A stretch of 64,000 bases of DNA from Serratia liquefaciens ATCC 27592 (lineage in GTDB: Bacteria; Pseudomonadota; Gammaproteobacteria; Enterobacterales; Enterobacteriaceae), in contig NC_021741.1 of assembly GCF_000422085.1 (NCBI RefSeq), positions 558,001-622,000 of the forward strand, given 5' to 3'. Positions 56,191-64,000 of this stretch are shown in pieces. The stretch's first letter is position 1; each line of letters opens with the position of its first letter. A program made the position numbers and the translations under genes. Below the pieces are notes generated by a model, which worked only from the letters and a program-made list of their open reading frames with translations, had not been told where the DNA came from and made no database searches.

Positions 56191-57114
56191 TTAAGTTCGC
56201 AACTGGTTTAAAGAATTTTTCTCCTTTTGCTGCAGATGGATTTTCATATGCTCAAGCAAACGGCGAACTTTTAAAGGTTGGCTGTCCCGTCGCGGCATAA
56301 TTGCATAGCAATTAATCTCTGGTAATCGCCATTCAGGCAGGATTTCCACCAAATCGCCATTGTGTAATTCACGCTCAACATTGACAAAGAAATTACGGAT
56401 GATCCCTTTGCCCGCCAGCGCCAGTTCTTTCATGGCCATACCGTTATTGGTAAATAGACGCCCGGTCATTCGTAGCCGATGTTCATCGCCGTTGTGGTGG
56501 AGCAGGCGAACAAATTGCGGGTTACCCAAGGGGGTAAAAGTCACCCATTGATGCCGGGTTAACGCTTGTGGGCTCTCGGGAATACCATGTCCCGCAAGGT
56601 AGGCTGGTGATGCACATAATACCTCACGAAAGCGCGCAAGGCGGGTAGAAACGTAACTGGAATCAGCCAACACACCGCCACGGATCGCCAGATCAATACG
56701 CTGGCCTATCAGGTCGATTTTCTCGTCGTGGATCTCCAGCCTCAGCGTGATGCGCGGGTGTTCATCAAGGAAGCTTTGCAGTGCAGGCACCAGATAGTGG
56801 GTGGCGAACTCAGTGGATGTGGCAACGCGTAGCTCCCCACTCAGCTCACCGCGCAGGGCGGCGATACGTTGTTGCCCCCGCTCGGCGGCATGCAGCATTA
56901 AAACGCAATCTTCATAAAAACAGAGCCCGGCTTCGGTCAGGCTCAGTGAGCGAGTAGAACGCAGAAGTAATTGAATGCCGAGCTCGTTTTCCAACAGGCG
57001 GATATGCTGGCTGACGGCAGAGGTGGTAATGCCTAATTCCTTGGCTGCCATGCTGAACGCGCCGCAATCGACAACTTTAGAAAAAATGGCCATGCGTTTT
57101 AGAATATTACTCAT
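56191..57114 (-). CDS. LysR-family regulator beside the isonitrile cluster
   Basis: This 307-residue LysR regulator has the winged-helix N-terminus (SKVVDCGAFSMAAKELGITTSAVSQ at about 12-36) and a ligand-binding domain resembling the large DhcR/TrpI-like subgroup (SGELRVATSTEFATHYLVPAL). It is divergent from isnA with 192 bases between the starts, so it most likely controls the isnA-isnB-glycosyltransferase genes. It starts at an ATG with no clear ribosome binding site, and a perfect palindrome covers the bases just upstream, suggesting autoregulation. Codon and base use look somewhat less GC-rich than in the backbone. Confidence 0.88.
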   Translation of the reverse strand: MSNILKRMAIFSKVVDCGAFSMAAKELGITTSAVSQHIRLLENELGIQLLLRSTRSLSLTEAGLCFYEDCVLMLHAAERGQQRIAALRGELSGELRVATSTEFATHYLVPALQSFLDEHPRITLRLEIHDEKIDLIGQRIDLAIRGGVLADSSYVSTRLARFREVLCASPAYLAGHGIPESPQALTRHQWVTFTPLGNPQFVRLLHHNGDEHRLRMTGRLFTNNGMAMKELALAGKGIIRNFFVNVERELHNGDLVEILPEWRLPEINCYAIMPRRDSQPLKVRRLLEHMKIHLQQKEKNSLNQLRT

Positions 57115-57119
57115 AGTTT

Positions 57120-57136
57120 GTTAAGTTCAACTTAAC
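57120..57136. promoter_or_regulatory. LysR-type operator palindrome
   Basis: GTTAAGTT-C-AACTTAAC is a perfect 17-bp inverted repeat whose inner part TAAGTTCAACTTA satisfies the LysR-box form T-N11-A. It lies 6-22 bases before the LysR start and 171 bases before the isnA start. Position and symmetry point to a regulator-binding site that represses lysR and may activate isnA. Confidence 0.6.
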
Positions 57137-57306
57137 CAAGATTGTTAATTATACGGGCTAATAATATAGCACCATCTCTTCTATATTGCCTGAAGCAGAT
57201 AAATATCAGCAGTGAATATTATTCCCTGGTGATGCCTCTTTTTTCGAAAAGTCTTATTGCGTTTGTGAATAAATCACCTGCGCCATAATCTGAACAGGAG
57301 TTAATT

Positions 57307-58272
57307 GTGGACAGTGCCCGTATTGAAAAAATATCGTTAAAGATCCTTCATGAGCTATTGCAATATCGGCGCCGATTCCCAGGGATAGAAACATCAAATT
57401 CCGACGAGGAGCGACTGGTCACTCAGGTGCAATTGCCGCGCATCCGGGCATTCATTGAACAACAACGGCGGATTGAGTTTGTACTGCCGGCCTTTCCGAC
57501 AAAATCACCCAATACTAATAAGGTGATCGGTGCGGTACCCGATATGGCGGAACGCTTATCGTTGATATTCCTTAATTCCCTCTGCCAGCGTATTCAGCTT
57601 TATTACCCGCCGGGTGCGCATATTGTCATCTGTTCGGATGGTCATGTCTTCGGCGATTTAATCCGCGTCAGTGACGATGCCATCAACCACTATCAGCGCG
57701 AAATTGAAACTCTGCTGCATGAGGTTGGGGCCACGCACCTGAGCGTGTTCAACCTGGGGGACGTGGAAGGGCTGGCGGAACACACCGACGACTACGATTT
57801 GCTGCGCCAGTTGCTGGTCGACGGTTATGCCGAATCGGAGTCGGCAATCAAACAACAGCTGATGGAAAGCGAGCAGGGGCTGCAACTGTACCGCGCCATT
57901 ACCCGCTTCCTGTATGAAGACAGTCAACTGCCGGGCTACAGCGGCTCGAATGCCGCGTTGCAGAAAGACGCCAAGCTGCGGGCCTGCGGCGTGATTCAAC
58001 GCAGCTGGGCCTGGGGTAACCTGCTGGCTCAGCATTTTCCGGCGGCGATCCGCTTGTCGATCCACCCGCAGCCTGCCGACAGCCTGAAAATAGGCATTCA
58101 TATGATGCCAACCAAGGACGACTGGTTGACACCGTGGCACGGCGTCGCGGCCAACGTCAACGGACAGTTCGTACTGATGAAACGCAAAGACGCTCAGGAG
58201 TTAGAGGGCGAATTGGTGGCGATCCGCGGTACGCCAAGCCATTACCTGATTGAACAACCTCAAGTGGTGTAA
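57307..58272 (+). CDS. isnA: Isonitrile (isocyanide) synthase, PvcA/IsnA/Dit1 family
   Basis: This 321-residue protein belongs to the PvcA/IsnA (DIT1_PvcA) family, which converts the alpha-amino group of L-tyrosine or L-tryptophan to an isonitrile using a carbon from ribulose-5-phosphate. The family core is visible: AERLSLIFLNSLCQRI, then YPPGAHIVICSDGHVFGDL near residues 99-117, and WAWGNLLAQHFP near 237. The start is a GTG with CAGGAG upstream. isnB and a glycosyltransferase follow on the same strand. Whether Tyr or Trp is the substrate cannot be read; the glycosyltransferase partner favours Tyr, whose phenol can be glycosylated. Confidence 0.88.
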   Translation: MDSARIEKISLKILHELLQYRRRFPGIETSNSDEERLVTQVQLPRIRAFIEQQRRIEFVLPAFPTKSPNTNKVIGAVPDMAERLSLIFLNSLCQRIQLYYPPGAHIVICSDGHVFGDLIRVSDDAINHYQREIETLLHEVGATHLSVFNLGDVEGLAEHTDDYDLLRQLLVDGYAESESAIKQQLMESEQGLQLYRAITRFLYEDSQLPGYSGSNAALQKDAKLRACGVIQRSWAWGNLLAQHFPAAIRLSIHPQPADSLKIGIHMMPTKDDWLTPWHGVAANVNGQFVLMKRKDAQELEGELVAIRGTPSHYLIEQPQVV

Positions 58273-58362
58273 TGCGCCACCTTACGCCCGCTATCTTGGC
58301 GAGCGTCTTTTAACGGCACGGTTGCCGTGTGAGCAGCAAATTTGCTTCAAGGAGAGTCACCG

Positions 58363-59226
58363 ATGGACAATCAACAATTGAACTGCCGTATTGAACTCAA
58401 TAGCCCCTTTGGCGCCGTATTGACCCCTGAACGCCCGGGGCAATCCATCAGCGAGCTGCCGGTAGCGGCGCTGCGGACGCTGGCACAGCAGCATCACCTG
58501 TTGGTGCTGCGCGGCTTCGATTCGGGTTTTACCGATCCGCGGGTATTGACCCGTTATGCCGGCAATTGGGGTGAGATCATGATGTGGCCCTTCGGCGCGG
58601 TGCTGGATGTGAAAGAACATCCAGACGCCAAGGACCATATTTTCGACAGCAGCTATGTGCCGCTGCACTGGGACGGCATGTATAAACCGACCATTCCGGA
58701 ATTCCAGCTGTTTCACTGTGTAGCCGCGCCCTCGCAGGATGAAGGCGGTTGCACTACCTTTGTCGATACCACGCGCCTGCTGGCCAATGCCGATGAGTCG
58801 CAGCTGGCTCAGTGGCTGACGGTGTCTATCTCATACCGCATCAAGCAGGTGGTGCACTACGGTGGTGAGGTGTGTTCGCCGCTGGTGGTGACGCACCCGA
58901 GCGGTAGTGGGCTGATCATGCGCTACAACGAACCGCCGACAGAAGGGAAGAAATTCCTCAACCAGCATGCGCTGGAATATCACGGGGTGCCGGAAGATCA
59001 GCAGGAAGCGTTCCATCAGACTCTGCAACAGCATCTCTACGATCCGCGCCACTATTACGCCCACCAGTGGCAGCAGGGTGATGTGGTGATCGCAGATAAC
59101 TTCTCGCTGCTGCACGGGCGTGAAGGCTTTACCGCCCGCTCGGCCCGCCATTTACAACGGGTTCATATACAGAGCAACCCGGTATGCGCCAATCTGGCGC
59201 TGAAACCGGCCAACGCAGAGGCTTAA
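58363..59226 (+). CDS. isnB: Fe(II)/2-oxoglutarate oxygenase, PvcB/IsnB type
   Basis: This 287-residue TauD-family oxygenase is the expected partner of IsnA: it oxidises the isonitrile amino acid, in the rhabduscin pathway with loss of the carboxylate to give an aryl-vinyl isonitrile. The iron ligands appear as H102 and D104 (PLHWDGMYKP) and H251 (SLLHGREGF), with the 2-oxoglutarate arginine nearby at about 262 or 266. The ATG at 58363 has AAGGAGAG; a TTG at 58342 is rejected. The 90-base gap after isnA has a small CACGG-TTG-CCGTG hairpin. The glycosyltransferase starts five bases after its stop. Confidence 0.88.
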   Translation: MDNQQLNCRIELNSPFGAVLTPERPGQSISELPVAALRTLAQQHHLLVLRGFDSGFTDPRVLTRYAGNWGEIMMWPFGAVLDVKEHPDAKDHIFDSSYVPLHWDGMYKPTIPEFQLFHCVAAPSQDEGGCTTFVDTTRLLANADESQLAQWLTVSISYRIKQVVHYGGEVCSPLVVTHPSGSGLIMRYNEPPTEGKKFLNQHALEYHGVPEDQQEAFHQTLQQHLYDPRHYYAHQWQQGDVVIADNFSLLHGREGFTARSARHLQRVHIQSNPVCANLALKPANAEA

Positions 59227-59231
59227 GAGTT

Positions 59232-60506
59232 ATGGCACGTATTCTGATGACCGCCGTGGCAACGCCCGGTCACGTCTACCCGATGCTGGGCATTGCCCGG
59301 CACCTGATTGCGCAAGGGCACCAGGTTCGGGTGATGACCGGCGCGTTGTTCCGTGAACGTGCGGAGGCGATAGGGGCGAAGTTTGTTGCCTTCGATCCCA
59401 AGGTCGATTTCGACTATCGCTATCTCGAGGAACACTTTCCTGAACGCGCTGCACTGCCGCCGGGCAATGTGCAGATGGCGCTGGCGTTGAAAGACTTTTT
59501 CGCCGCTCCAATCCCGTTGCTGAATCAACAGTTGCGTACGGTGATCGCCGCCGAGGCTACCGATCTGCTGATGGTGGAAAACTGTTTCTACGGGGTATTG
59601 CCGCTGCTGCAGGCGGAAGAACGCCCTCCGGTTATCGGTATCGGCGTAACGCCGCTGTCATTTTCGTCTGAAGATTCCATCTTCTACGGGCCGCGCATTC
59701 CTCCGGCGCTGTTGCCGCGGGAGCTACGTCGCGAACAGCTGGTGGATGACGCCACGCGTGCCTTGATTGATGAGGTGCAGCAGAGTTTTGACGCCGCGAT
59801 GACGCAATCCGGTGGCAGGCCGCTGCACCAACCCTTTAGCGATGCCTTGATTGGCGGTTGCGATCGTTTCTTGCAACTGGCGACCCCTGCGCTGGAATAT
59901 CGGCGTGACGATTTGCCGGCCGGCGTGCGATTTATTGGCCCGTTGCGCAGCGCCCCGATGCAACTGCCGAGCGAAGCCCTCTGGGATGAGACGGACCAAC
60001 GGCCGCTGGTGATTGTCAGCCAGGGCACGTTGGCGAATGTCGATCTGCATCAGTTGATTGTTCCGACGCTGAAGGCGCTGGCACAGTTACCGGTACGGGT
60101 GCTGGCGACCACCGGGGGGCGTTCGGTCGACGGGCTGTTGGAGCGGCTGCCGGACAATGCCAGAGTGCGGGAGTTTATCTCTTTCGAACGCTGGCTGCCG
60201 CAGGCCGCAGTGCTGATCACCAACGGCGGTTACGGCTCAATCAACTACGCGTTGGATCAGGGCGTGCCGTTGATTATCGCCGGTACCGGCGAGGACAAGC
60301 TAGAGGCGGCTGCTCGGGTGGTGGCAGCTGGCTGCGGCATTAATCTGCACACCAGCAATCCGGACGAATCGCAGCTGCGCCATGCCGTGCAGCAGATCCT
60401 GACGCAACCAGCCTACCGACAGCATGCGGCATGGGTTCAGGCCGATTATGCTCGCCATGATGCGCTGGCGGCGATTGCCGAAGAGGTGGCGGCGTTAACC
60501 GCTTAA
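59232..60506 (+). CDS. GT1-family glycosyltransferase of the isonitrile cluster
   Basis: This 424-residue enzyme is a GT-B fold, GT1 (UGT-like) glycosyltransferase. The N-terminal TPGHVYPMLGIARHL contains the likely catalytic base His14; the C-terminal nucleotide-sugar region reads RWLPQAAVLITNGGYGSIN and PLIIAGTGEDK. The usual HGG of this motif is NGG here (residues 331-333), which may alter donor choice. Start five bases after isnB implies coupled translation. By analogy with rhabduscin and byelyankacin, it would attach a sugar (possibly a deoxysugar such as rhamnose) to the phenol of the vinyl isonitrile. Donor and acceptor are inferred. Confidence 0.85.
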   Translation: MARILMTAVATPGHVYPMLGIARHLIAQGHQVRVMTGALFRERAEAIGAKFVAFDPKVDFDYRYLEEHFPERAALPPGNVQMALALKDFFAAPIPLLNQQLRTVIAAEATDLLMVENCFYGVLPLLQAEERPPVIGIGVTPLSFSSEDSIFYGPRIPPALLPRELRREQLVDDATRALIDEVQQSFDAAMTQSGGRPLHQPFSDALIGGCDRFLQLATPALEYRRDDLPAGVRFIGPLRSAPMQLPSEALWDETDQRPLVIVSQGTLANVDLHQLIVPTLKALAQLPVRVLATTGGRSVDGLLERLPDNARVREFISFERWLPQAAVLITNGGYGSINYALDQGVPLIIAGTGEDKLEAAARVVAAGCGINLHTSNPDESQLRHAVQQILTQPAYRQHAAWVQADYARHDALAAIAEEVAALTA

Positions 60507-60520
60507 GTCGCTTTTATCAC

Positions 60521-60543
60521 GGGGGCTTCGGCCCCCATTTTTT
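60521..60543 (+). terminator. Terminator of the isonitrile cluster
   Basis: A GGGGGC / GCCCCC stem with a stable TTCG tetraloop is followed by ATTTTTT. It closes the isnA-isnB-glycosyltransferase transcript. Confidence 0.9.
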
Positions 60544-60586: not shown

Positions 60587-61489
60587 TCACAGGGAAAATT
60601 GACTTAAAAATCGGTCGATCATCAGCCGATCTTCTGCAGTCAGTTGCCAACCGGGGTGGCGACAGTAATCGGTGGCGATGATATTGCGTCGTTGCAGGAC
60701 GGTCTTTTCGATCTGAATGATGTATTCGCAGTGACTCATCCAGCGTTGGATGTAAGGCAACAATGCCTGATGCAGCCTATTCGCTTGTTCCACTTCACCG
60801 GCCTGCCAATGGCGATAAATACGCAGGTAAATCTCGCTGAACGAGCAACCCGGCATCACGCCTTTGCCGCCCGCCGCCAACATCTGCAACATATAAAGCC
60901 CGGCATAGCCGTTCAGCACGTTGGCTTCAGGGGCCAGTTGCAGAAATTCTTTGGTGTATTCCACCGGCGGATTACATTCAATTTTGAACACCGCATGGGG
61001 ATAGCGGGCTGCCACGTCGGCCAATTGTTGCGGGGTGATCGGCAAACCGGTTTCACTCGGCGCGTATTGCACCATTACCGGGATGTCTACGGCCTCCAGA
61101 ACGGCGAAAATGTGCTGCTGGATCGCCTGTGGGCTGGGTTGAAGGAAAAAGGGGGGCAGCAGCATCAAAGCGTCGGCGCCCAGAGCTTGATAATGACGAG
61201 CGCGTTTGACGGCGACTTCGCTGCTGTGATCGGTGACCGAGATAGCGCGAAACAGCGGGGCTCCTGCCAGTTCGCTGATAAATATCTCCGCCAGGCGTTC
61301 TCGCTCAGGCTCCTCGAGCTTCGGGAATTCGCTGGCGATGCCAAATAGCGTCATTCCCTGAACGCCGGTTGCTGCCAGATGCTCCAGCAACTGGGTAAAA
61401 CTCAGCGGGTCGATTTCGCCATTGGCCTTGAACGGCATGGCGACGATAGGGTTGACCCCTTCAATGTCGATAGCTTGGTAACGGCCCAT
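60587..61489 (-). CDS. DapA-family (dihydrodipicolinate synthase-like) aldolase
   Basis: This 300-residue TIM-barrel protein belongs to the DapA/NAL family of class I aldolases and dehydratases. The GIASEFPKLEEPER segment is the substrate-binding loop, Tyr142 lies in VQYAPSETG and the Schiff-base lysine is probably K169 in AVFKIECNPP. Its ATG overlaps the stop of the upstream IlvD/Edd gene (TAATG), so the two act together. By analogy with yjhG-yjhH and yagF-yagE, it probably cleaves a 2-keto-3-deoxy sugar acid made by the dehydratase. It is not the biosynthetic dapA. The substrate is unproven. Confidence 0.82.
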   Translation of the reverse strand: MGRYQAIDIEGVNPIVAMPFKANGEIDPLSFTQLLEHLAATGVQGMTLFGIASEFPKLEEPERERLAEIFISELAGAPLFRAISVTDHSSEVAVKRARHYQALGADALMLLPPFFLQPSPQAIQQHIFAVLEAVDIPVMVQYAPSETGLPITPQQLADVAARYPHAVFKIECNPPVEYTKEFLQLAPEANVLNGYAGLYMLQMLAAGGKGVMPGCSFSEIYLRIYRHWQAGEVEQANRLHQALLPYIQRWMSHCEYIIQIEKTVLQRRNIIATDYCRHPGWQLTAEDRLMIDRFLSQFSL

Positions 61490-63201
61490 TATTCCTCCTC
61501 CCGATCGGCCAGTACGGCACCCTGCGCAGCAGGTAAAGCCCAGCGACGATATAAACGCAGGAAGCCGCGCGGCACTTCTTTGTCCACGGGTTGCCAGTTT
61601 TGGCGCCGCTGCGCCAACATCGTCTCGTCAACGTGCAGCGTAAGAGTACGCGCGGGAATATCGATGGATATTTCGTCACCGTCTTGCACCAATGCCAGCT
61701 CGCCGCCGTCCACCGCTTCAGGCGAGATATGGCCGACAAACAGCCCGCGGTTGGAGCCGGAGAAACGGCCGTCGGTGATCAGAGCGCAACTGTCAGCCAG
61801 GCCCATGCCTTCCAGCGATTTCATCGGCTTATACATTTCCGGCATGCCGGGGCCACCTTTAGGCCCTTCATAGCGCAAGACCAGGGCGCTACCCGGCTTA
61901 ATCTGGCCGGACATAATCGCCTCGACGGACTCCTGCTCGCTGTTGAACACCACGGCGGGCCCCCGGAAGCGCATCAAATTTTCCGGCACAGCCGCAGGCT
62001 TCACCACGCAGCCTAACGGTGACAAATTACCGTGCAGTACGGCAACGCCAGCTTCATTCCGCACCGGAATGGCCAGGGTATGGATGACTTCCGGGCGGCG
62101 GCTTGGCCGGGTTTCCGCCAGCAGTTCCGCTTTGGTTTTGCCGGTGACGGTTAACGCGTTGAGATCGAGCAGTTTGGCAATCTCAAGCTCTACTGCCGGT
62201 ACGCCACCCGCTTCCCAAAAATCAATCATGTCATGTTCACTGGCCGGATAGAGCGAGGCAACCAGCGGTACCTGGTGGCTCAACTCATCGAAGACGGACA
62301 GCGGCAGATGGCCTAATTCCGCTTCGTAATGAATGGCTTGCAGATGCAGAATGGCATTGGTGGAGCCGCCGGTGGCCAGCAGGTAGATCACCGCATTGCG
62401 GATCGACACGGCGGTGATAATTTGGCGGGCATTGACGCCATTCAATACCAGTTCCACCGCGGTGCGCCCGGTTTCGATAGCGCACTCGCGGCGTTCGGCC
62501 GAAACCGCCGGCAGCGTGCTGCTGCCAGGGAGGCTCATACCCAGTACTTCACCGATGCAGCACATGGTGTTGGCGGTGCCGTACATAGTGCAGGAGCCCG
62601 GGCCGGGTTCGGCGATATTTTCGATATGGGCAAATTCCGCCTCATCGATTTCGCCACGCATCTTCCAACCGATGGCCTCGGTGACGATGTTGCCGTCCCA
62701 GTGTTTACCTTTATATTCAGCCGGGTACATCGGCCCGCCGTTAACCATGATGGCCGGAATATCCAGCCGCGCCGCCGCCATCAGCATGGCGGGGACAATT
62801 TTGTCGCAGGAGCCAAGTAACACCATGCCGTCGAAACGATGGGCACGCATCATCACTTCGATGGAGGCGGTGATCACTTCACGAGCGGCCAGAATGTAGC
62901 GCATGCCGAGATGCCCTTCGGCGATACCGTCACAGGGAGCGATAGTGCCGAATACCATGCCGACCCCACCGGCCTCTTCAATGCCCTGCAATACTTTGGC
63001 CGTCAGCTCATTCAGATTGGCGTGGCCGGCCGTCGCGTTGGTATAGCTGTTGACCACGGCGATCACCGGACGGCGCAGTTGCTCGTCACTGTGCCCCATG
63101 GATTTGTATAGCGCACGCTTCAGCGCGCCATCATCGCCTTCCAGAATGGGGTTGAAATGCGAGCCGCAACCGCCGCTGCTACAGGTTCCACATCCGCTCA
63201 T
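61489..63201 (-). CDS. IlvD/Edd-family sugar-acid dehydratase
   Basis: This protein of about 570 residues is an iron-sulfur dehydratase of the IlvD/Edd family. The cluster cysteines are visible in [24 protein letters not shown] and [16 protein letters not shown], and the SGSNRG motif near the C-terminus is present. Its first 15 residues carry an unusual cysteine cluster (C4, C7, C12 in [14 protein letters not shown]). Paired with a DapA-like aldolase and an MFS transporter, it is more likely an aldonate dehydratase than IlvD of valine synthesis. I use the ATG at 63201; a TTG two codons earlier is possible. Confidence 0.85.
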
Positions 63202-63203
63202 AA

Positions 63204-64000
63204 TCAAGATCTCTCAGTGATATTTAAAGGATTGTCAGCGTCAGACTGAGCAATATGTTGGTGTTGCAAGTCATGGTTTTTTTTAGGGGAGACCAGTTTG
63301 GCCGGCAGCATGAAAATCAACGGGGCGCAGAGCAACAGGAAGCCCGCCAGAATGTACAGGCCGCTGTCGGTTTGTCCGGTTTGATCTTTCAGCCAGCCGA
63401 GCACCGTGGGGCCGAAGAAACCCGCGAGGTTGCCGACAGAATTCACCAGAGCAATACCGGCAGCGGCGGCGGTGCCGGAAAGCAGGGTGCCGGGCAGGCT
63501 GATGTAGGTAGGGATCAGCGCCAGGGTGCCGGACATTGCTACGCATATCCACGTCATCATCCAGAAGGTGGAGCCGCTGCAGTAAGCGCTCAACGTCAGG
63601 CCGATGCAGCCAATCACCGCCGGGATGGCGATATGCCAGCGACGTTCCTGCTTAAGATCGGAATGGCGACTGTTCCAGATCATAAAGACGGCGCCAAACA
63701 CGTAAGGCAACGCAGCCAGCAGGCCGATTTGGAAATCGTCGCTGATACCCGAAGTCTTGATAATGGAAGGTAACCAGAAACTGACGCCGTAATAACCGAC
63801 GTTGAAACTGAAAAAAATCAACGCCAACAGCCAGACATAGCGGTTAGCCAGCATCTCTTTCAGGCTATGGGCCGTTTTGCCATTTGCTGCGCGATCCCGG
63901 TTGGCGCGATCTTTGGCCAGATCGGTTTGCACGATCTGTTTTTCTTCGGCGGTGAGCCATTTGGCTTCAGCCACGTTGTTATCCAGGTAACGCAGCACCA
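63204..64000 (-). CDS. MFS transporter (anion:cation symporter-like), partial
   Basis: The C-terminal 264 or so residues of a major-facilitator transporter enter from the right window edge; the start is outside. Six helices are visible (for example [20 protein letters not shown] and [17 protein letters not shown]), and the cytoplasmic linker with [10 protein letters not shown] is typical of the ACS (phthalate/hexuronate/tartrate) subgroup that imports sugar acids and other organic anions. Its stop lies just before the dehydratase start, so transporter, dehydratase and aldolase form one operon read leftward. Confidence 0.85.

Follow-up and report, generated by a model that had tools for sequence, protein, structure and literature searches.

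Several described systems stand close to the locus considered here, a predicted isonitrile operon of Serratia liquefaciens ATCC 27592 that consists of isnA, isnB and a glycosyltransferase (GT) gene next to a divergent LysR-type regulator gene. Byelyankacin is 4-(2-isocyanovinyl)phenyl rhamnoside, and the sugar of rhabduscin is derived from dTDP-4-acetamido-4,6-dideoxygalactose (dTDP-Fuc4NAc), a nucleotide sugar of the pathway to the enterobacterial common antigen. The paerucumarin cluster pvcABCD of Pseudomonas starts with two enzymes homologous to IsnA and IsnB, and in P. aeruginosa pvcA is adjoined by a LysR gene (PtxR). The rhabduscin cluster of Xenorhabdus nematophila holds isnA, isnB and a GT gene in this same order, and E. 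coli was stated to produce rhabduscin upon overexpression of the cluster (PMC6386379); byelyankacin has been named beside rhabduscin among the products formed via such isonitrile intermediates (PMC9467999). For Serratia marcescens, a pvc cluster starting with sma0021 (pvcA) was reported to make 2-isocyano-6,7-dihydroxycoumarin (ICDH-coumarin) and to tune iron sensing by RssAB (Lin et al., 2016; PMC5109203). The S. liquefaciens locus lies in a stretch of 64,000 nt (G000:C1:558001-622000, in the following called the window) of a 5.28 Mb genome. Based on the comparisons given below, we hold it to be highly probable that its operon converts L-tyrosine to 4-(2-isocyanovinyl)phenol, which is likely capped with a sugar, and that the product is a glycoside of the rhabduscin/byelyankacin type rather than a coumarin. 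The genes and the end of the operon are as follows:

56191-57114, minus strand: LysR-type regulator gene, divergent from isnA (Pfam HTH_1 71.7 bits, LysR_substrate 131.3 bits)
57307-58272, plus strand: isnA, L-tyrosine isonitrile synthase of 321 aa with a GTG start (NF045653; PDB relatives)
58363-59226, plus strand: isnB, predicted Fe(II)/2-oxoglutarate desaturase-decarboxylase of the PIsnB type (profile scores, residues, tree)
59232-60506, plus strand: GT1-family glycosyltransferase gene, likely orthologue of the rhabduscin GT (identity, tree)
60521-60543, plus strand: intrinsic terminator at the operon end, GGGGGC-TTCG-GCCCCC followed by a T-run (6 G-C pairs, TTCG loop)

A first-pass annotation of this DNA had described isnA, isnB and a GT1 glycosyltransferase with a divergent LysR regulator, tightly spaced and closed by one terminator. 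Coordinates and gene identities were confirmed, as was the closing terminator. The tight spacing holds for isnB and the GT gene, which starts 5 bp past the isnB stop, but not for isnA and isnB, which are separated by a gap of 90 bp containing a conserved terminator-like hairpin. Since the order LysR, isnA, isnB and GT start is kept in 26 of 26 loci of the genus, the window's own included (these loci contain only the start of the GT gene), the arrangement is not due to chance.

IsnA scored 630.4 bits against the NCBIfam equivalog model for L-tyrosine isonitrile synthase (NF045653, cut-off 600) and 280 bits against the Pfam domain DIT1_PvcA (cut-off 26.4). Its three solved relatives that were found are isonitrile synthases and PvcA, with 493.6 bits for PDB 9dhm and 429.7 bits for PvcA (3e59). 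The grouping outside the PvcA/IsnA family that the first-pass annotation had named as refuting its proposal was not observed. The protein is 98% identical to that of a named S. liquefaciens record, its nearest named relative, and all 26 distinct upstream sequences of the genus share the GTG start of its gene. IsnA would join the nitrogen of tyrosine to a carbon from ribulose-5-phosphate, yielding tyrosine isonitrile.

The reaction type of IsnB, a TauD-family protein (162.5 bits), separates the two possible product classes. Its profile scores were 397.1 bits for PIsnB (7tcl) vs 276.1 bits for PvcB (3eat). The iron ligands H102, D104 and H251 noted in the first reading are present, and the HDH triad is kept in 115 of 120 homologues (the 120 listed out of 873). 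According to a published rule, K/R at position 107 together with N/H at position 188 (PIsnB numbering) marks enzymes that form a vinyl isonitrile with loss of CO2, while L and C at these sites mark those that form isocyanoacrylates (PMC9467999). The IsnB of the window carries K108/N189, the signature of the decarboxylating PIsnB type, from which this catalysis is predicted. The L/C pair of the PvcB type was found in the alignment for 3EAT, L074, P0215 and L144. Among the 120 homologues most like the window's IsnB (of 873), 96 have K/R+N, one has L/C and 23 have other residues.

In a tree of 31 IsnB rows, midpoint-rooted for drawing, 18 rows including those from Serratia, the assayed PIsnB (7TCL) and a protein from A. 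hydrophila group together at 97/92, whereas the PvcB of P. aeruginosa and three further L/C rows form a separate group of four at 99/100. The A. hydrophila row is probably PIsnB-Ah or a near copy of it, because its signature residues are numbered K113/N194, as are those reported for the assayed PIsnB-Ah. Gene order follows the same division among 80 distinct IsnB-like sequences, many of which are closely related and therefore not independent rows: in 53 a GT gene comes next and all 53 have K/R+N, in two pvcC comes next and both have L/C, and in the remaining 25, with neither gene next, 15 have K/N (13 of them from Photorhabdus) and 10 have other types or gaps. As residues, tree and gene order agree, IsnB was assigned to the PIsnB type. 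With iron and 2-oxoglutarate, it would abstract a hydrogen and eliminate CO2 from tyrosine isonitrile to leave the vinyl isonitrile.

The third enzyme, with the Pfam domains EryCIII-like_C/UDPGT, is 57% identical over 100% coverage to P0058, the named rhabduscin glycosyltransferase of X. nematophila. Its identity is 57-64% with Photorhabdus GTs and 69% with one Dickeya GT (all among the best 120 of 325 matches). A tree with 20 relatives places it with GTs of Serratia and Rouxiella at 98/98, and as no GT1 from outside was used as outgroup this shows nesting among the relatives only. Taken together, it is likely an orthologue of the rhabduscin GT. The host genome encodes WecE (704.7 bits, cut-off 434.85) and WecD (275.5 bits, cut-off 195.1) above curated cut-offs, so that dTDP-Fuc4NAc should be available, and this nucleotide sugar of the common antigen pathway would be the likeliest donor for the GT. 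Such a product would have its aglycone in common with byelyankacin and, like it, carry a single sugar. With an IsnA equivalog, an IsnB of the PIsnB type by residues and tree, and a full-length relative of the rhabduscin GT, the first-pass proposal of an aryl-isonitrile glycoside of the rhabduscin/byelyankacin kind is supported.

A different division of labor has to be considered for the GT, namely that the free vinyl isonitrile is the working product and the GT acts elsewhere or only serves detoxification or export. In this regard, a GT mutant of X. nematophila kept intermediate phenoloxidase inhibition (PMC6386379), the aglycone alone was reported from Photorhabdus work to inhibit the alternative complement pathway (PMC4683029), and the Photorhabdus loci compared show no GT beside isnAB. 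However, in Serratia the GT gene follows isnB directly in all genus loci, at 5 bp in the window, and the encoded protein is related over its whole length to the one named rhabduscin GT, which makes a free working product very improbable. The glycoside remains the preferred product.

This prediction has to be set against the published chemistry of S. marcescens. The two S. marcescens-named records G024 and G027 (L076 and L035 by matching coordinates) contain exactly one gene of the PvcA family each, and this sole pvcA adjoins ispH; the third gene of the locus encodes the GT, and dapB and carA come next. In the genus genome G018, whose sequence starts with thrA, a crude count puts isnA at open frame 22, or at about 20 if two doubtful small frames are left out; comparing this with sma0021 assumes a numbering from the same thrA start. 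Because it is the only PvcA gene there, lies beside ispH and is about the 20th to 22nd frame from thrA, the published pvc cluster (strain CH-1; KC291199, 'pvcABC') very likely corresponds to the same operon. Neither a glycosyltransferase nor a LysR gene is named in the main text of that paper (no occurrence of 'glycosyl' or 'lysr'; PMC5109203). The two product claims conflict, since the coumarin keeps the carboxyl of tyrosine as its lactone carbonyl, while an enzyme of the PIsnB type expels it. In the open literature examined, with subscription papers outside the search, we found no remark on this conflict and no work pairing any two of the terms isocyanovinyl, vinyl isonitrile and Serratia.

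Several observations weigh against a vinyl isonitrile glycoside, among them those of this S. marcescens work. ICDH-coumarin was identified by liquid chromatography-mass spectrometry (LC-MS) and nuclear magnetic resonance (NMR), was absent in the deletion mutant, and its iron chelation was detected in a chrome azurol S (CAS) assay (PMC5109203). Additionally, one HpaB homologue with 44% identity to PvcC was present in each of 11 of 11 Serratia genomes searched, and thus a ring hydroxylase exists in Serratia. As regards IsnB, the single mutants K113L and N194C of PIsnB-Ah left the product unchanged (PMC9467999), for which reason the signature residues are to be taken as markers or correlates and not as determinants; and P0173, which lies inside the PIsnB-side tree group, has V/C, so that the residue rule is imperfect on this side. 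For the GT, relatedness does not fix which sugar is transferred, and a specificity such as rhamnosyl transfer in the style of byelyankacin is not readable from the sequence. Finally, supernatant of Serratia entomophila MOR4.1 did not inhibit phenoloxidase of Spodoptera and did so once the Xenorhabdus cluster was added, which led the authors to suggest that S. entomophila lacks such inhibiting factors (PMC6386379). This result would follow if MOR4.1 has no such operon, if the Serratia operon is not expressed in broth, or if it makes something other than this inhibitor.

The chemical and HpaB data would be accommodated if the operon made the iron chelator ICDH-coumarin (paerucumarin). In that case HpaBC, encoded elsewhere, would replace PvcC, and the third gene would either be incidental or serve to glycosylate the coumarin. 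In the genome of the window both proteins exceed curated cut-offs (HpaB, TIGR02310, 1082.6 bits; HpaC, TIGR02296, 251 bits), and they could make catechol forms of the isonitrile. Yet an IsnB of the PIsnB type would remove the very carboxyl needed for the lactone, and neither pvcC nor pvcD is found in the Serratia locus, where the GT gene follows isnB in the 26 genus loci and, at full length (no fewer than 423 of its 424 residues matched), in 13 named Serratia loci, with dapB and carA next in the two S. marcescens loci. This differs from the Pseudomonas system, whose PvcB is of the L/C type and retains the carboxyl, and from the coumarin-type reference locus of P. mangiferae, in which an HpaB-like hydroxylase and a cytochrome c gene, both missing from the Serratia locus, follow pvcB; in a second genome of the genus of P. 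mangiferae pvcC follows an L/C pvcB. The PvcD of P. mangiferae gave only a weak match of 70 residues in the genome of the window (the search for PvcD was confined to this Serratia genome). The quoted m/z of 204.03 fits the [M+H]+ ion of the coumarin (204.029), whereas the stated negative-ion mode would give 202.015, a mismatch that may be a reporting slip. We therefore regard coumarin formation by this operon as unlikely.

Two candidates were rejected in this context. The only match to PF03241 in the genome of the window is HpaB (G000:C1:541732-543195), and it was dismissed as a stand-in for PvcC, being a 4-hydroxyphenylacetate hydroxylase beside HpaC, about 72 kb from isnA and outside the operon. 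A paerucumarin-type product was rejected because of the type of IsnB, the genes present and the number of carbons, a decision opposed by the published chemistry.

It may also be asked whether this strain keeps the locus silent or is losing it. The cluster of X. poinarii provides a precedent, its genes being intact and silent through a promoter insertion (PMC6386379), the negative result for S. entomophila would fit, and the hairpin between isnA and isnB has one mismatch in the stem of the window's own copy. Against this, no frame of the operon is interrupted, IsnB retains its iron ligands and signature residues, and the promoter region matches that of the rest of the genus; moreover, expression of pvcA in S. 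marcescens rises in the migration phase of swarming (PMC5109203). Of the explanations considered, silence or decay seems to us the most improbable.

The control of the predicted glycoside operon was examined in its intergenic regions, which contain the following elements:

57120-57136, no strand: candidate LysR box, a perfect dyad GTTAAG-N5-CTTAAC with T-N11-A (genus conservation)
57157-57170, no strand: second conserved block GCTAATAATATAGC of the divergent promoter region (25 of 26 distinct intergenics)
58284-58311, plus strand: terminator-like hairpin with T-tract in the isnA-isnB gap (conservation, covariation)
58313-58328, plus strand: second small hairpin ACGGCA-CGGT-TGCCGT, 5′ of the isnB ribosome-binding site (96.7% of cells paired)

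The divergent region between the LysR gene and isnA measures 192 bp. T-N11-A is the usual form of a LysR box, and the dyad is kept in 25 of 26 distinct intergenics of the genus; among 20000 mononucleotide shuffles, TAAG-N5-CTTA occurred in 136 and any 6-5-6 dyad in 1409. The LysR protein probably controls the operon from this dyad. An orthologue with 86-99% identity adjoins isnA in the 25 other genus loci, while no match above 80% identity was found around the loci of Pectobacterium, Xenorhabdus and Photorhabdus, where some stretches end at contig ends. A promoter scan gave 6 sigma-70-like sites vs 3.7 (standard deviation, sd, 1.9) expected by shuffling, and no promoter is claimed. In S. marcescens, phosphorylated RssB (RssB-P) bound a fragment from -349 to +38 (PMC5109203), which, transferred to the window, would cover the divergent region in full and reach into the first part of the LysR gene. 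A binding motif for RssB was sought in the text of PMC3162612 and not found, and no RssB site was placed.

For terminator-like sites, the scan gave 10 vs 4.8 (sd 1.9) by shuffling. The first hairpin after isnA has a 7-bp stem in the consensus fold from 26 rows, with 97.1% of cells paired across 25 distinct rows and three pairs changed on both sides, a number reached by 8 of 500 shuffles. In the second hairpin no pair changed on both sides, so that covariation is uninformative there. Over both hairpins, 96.9% of pair cells are standard in the 25 distinct rows, which 1 of 500 shuffles reached, although related sequences can exceed such shuffles without any structure; six slid controls reached 25.5-58.0%. 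Further pair types were not above chance (93 of 500 shuffles), and single-sequence folding of isnA-isnB gaps was not significant (z of -0.91, -1.43 and -1.35). The hairpin claim is thus based on conservation and covariation. The first hairpin would dampen isnB and the GT gene relative to isnA, and we infer that partial termination at this point, as by a possible intra-operon attenuator, would yield more IsnA than IsnB and GT.

A DIT1_PvcA search of 60 relatives, the own genome included, gave 26 positive genomes with one match each, all within the genus. The locus is present in 26 of 30 genus genomes, and the four without it measure 1.5, 1.9, 2.5 and 3.6 Mb; the operon is accordingly near-universal in Serratia, being found in all full-sized genus genomes searched. 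The housekeeping gene ispH adjoins the locus in the window and lies just upstream in 12 of 12 named Serratia loci with enough flank. Homologues of isnAB in S. marcescens are already in print (PMC6386379). Beyond the genus the trait occurs only sparsely, its main named holders being Xenorhabdus, Photorhabdus and Pectobacterium: PvcA-family proteins were found in 9 of 394 genomes of an order sample (including the own genome and one other genus member, and one match below the cut-off) and in 4 of 369 of a class sample (own included), and the narrower NF045653 model matched 24 of 392 genomes of a family sample, six of them in the genus and 18 over the cut-off. All three genes are present in 19 named Xenorhabdus loci, with 70-74% (IsnA) and 53-57% (IsnB) identity to the window and the K/R+N signature. 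They differ in that no match to the Serratia LysR was found in the Xenorhabdus stretches compared, to which the locus of X. nematophila itself did not belong.

Some related loci deviate from this pattern. In the Pectobacterium stretches L048, L077 and L083, there is a match to isnA but none to isnB and GT, or each of the three genes is matched in pieces only, and the operon may be decaying there. Two adjoining genes of the PvcA/IsnA family, one in a frame of about 590-600 codons, occur in L132-L139 (G868, G969, G1038 and G1097; genus g464 of the same family), where the IsnB relative has P and Q at the signature positions, so that neither known product type is predicted. In L089/L098 (G298), a PvcA-family domain lies in an open frame of 879 codons that may encode a fused isonitrile enzyme, and another gene of this family is found close to it. 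Past the operon, the window contains genes for a DHDPS-family aldolase and an IlvD/Edd-family dehydratase (60587-63207, minus strand), unlike the dapB and carA of the two S. marcescens loci.

Low nanomolar concentrations of rhabduscin inhibit both tyrosinase and the phenoloxidase of insects, and an earlier study implicated it in virulence toward Galleria, whereas isnAB mutants of X. nematophila were still virulent in two Spodoptera species (PMC6386379). In Serratia, the conservation of the locus in all full-sized genus genomes searched and its position beside a housekeeping gene suggest a general role in surface, signaling or defence functions and not that of a specialized insect weapon. A more far-reaching possibility is that the Serratia signal for iron sensing and swarming ascribed to ICDH-coumarin is in fact a single glycosylated aryl vinyl isonitrile of the core genome, switched by RssAB and the LysR protein, which would time surface spreading and shield the cell against phenoloxidase and complement of the host, the coumarin structure then being wrong; this we put forward tentatively, and would at present rather lean against it. 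That a sequence-based prediction opposes a published structure makes the assignment of a Serratia metabolite linked to swarming and iron sensing directly testable. If the prediction is true, nearly the whole genus Serratia would possess isonitrile chemistry as a core trait, which would then not be a speciality of entomopathogens.

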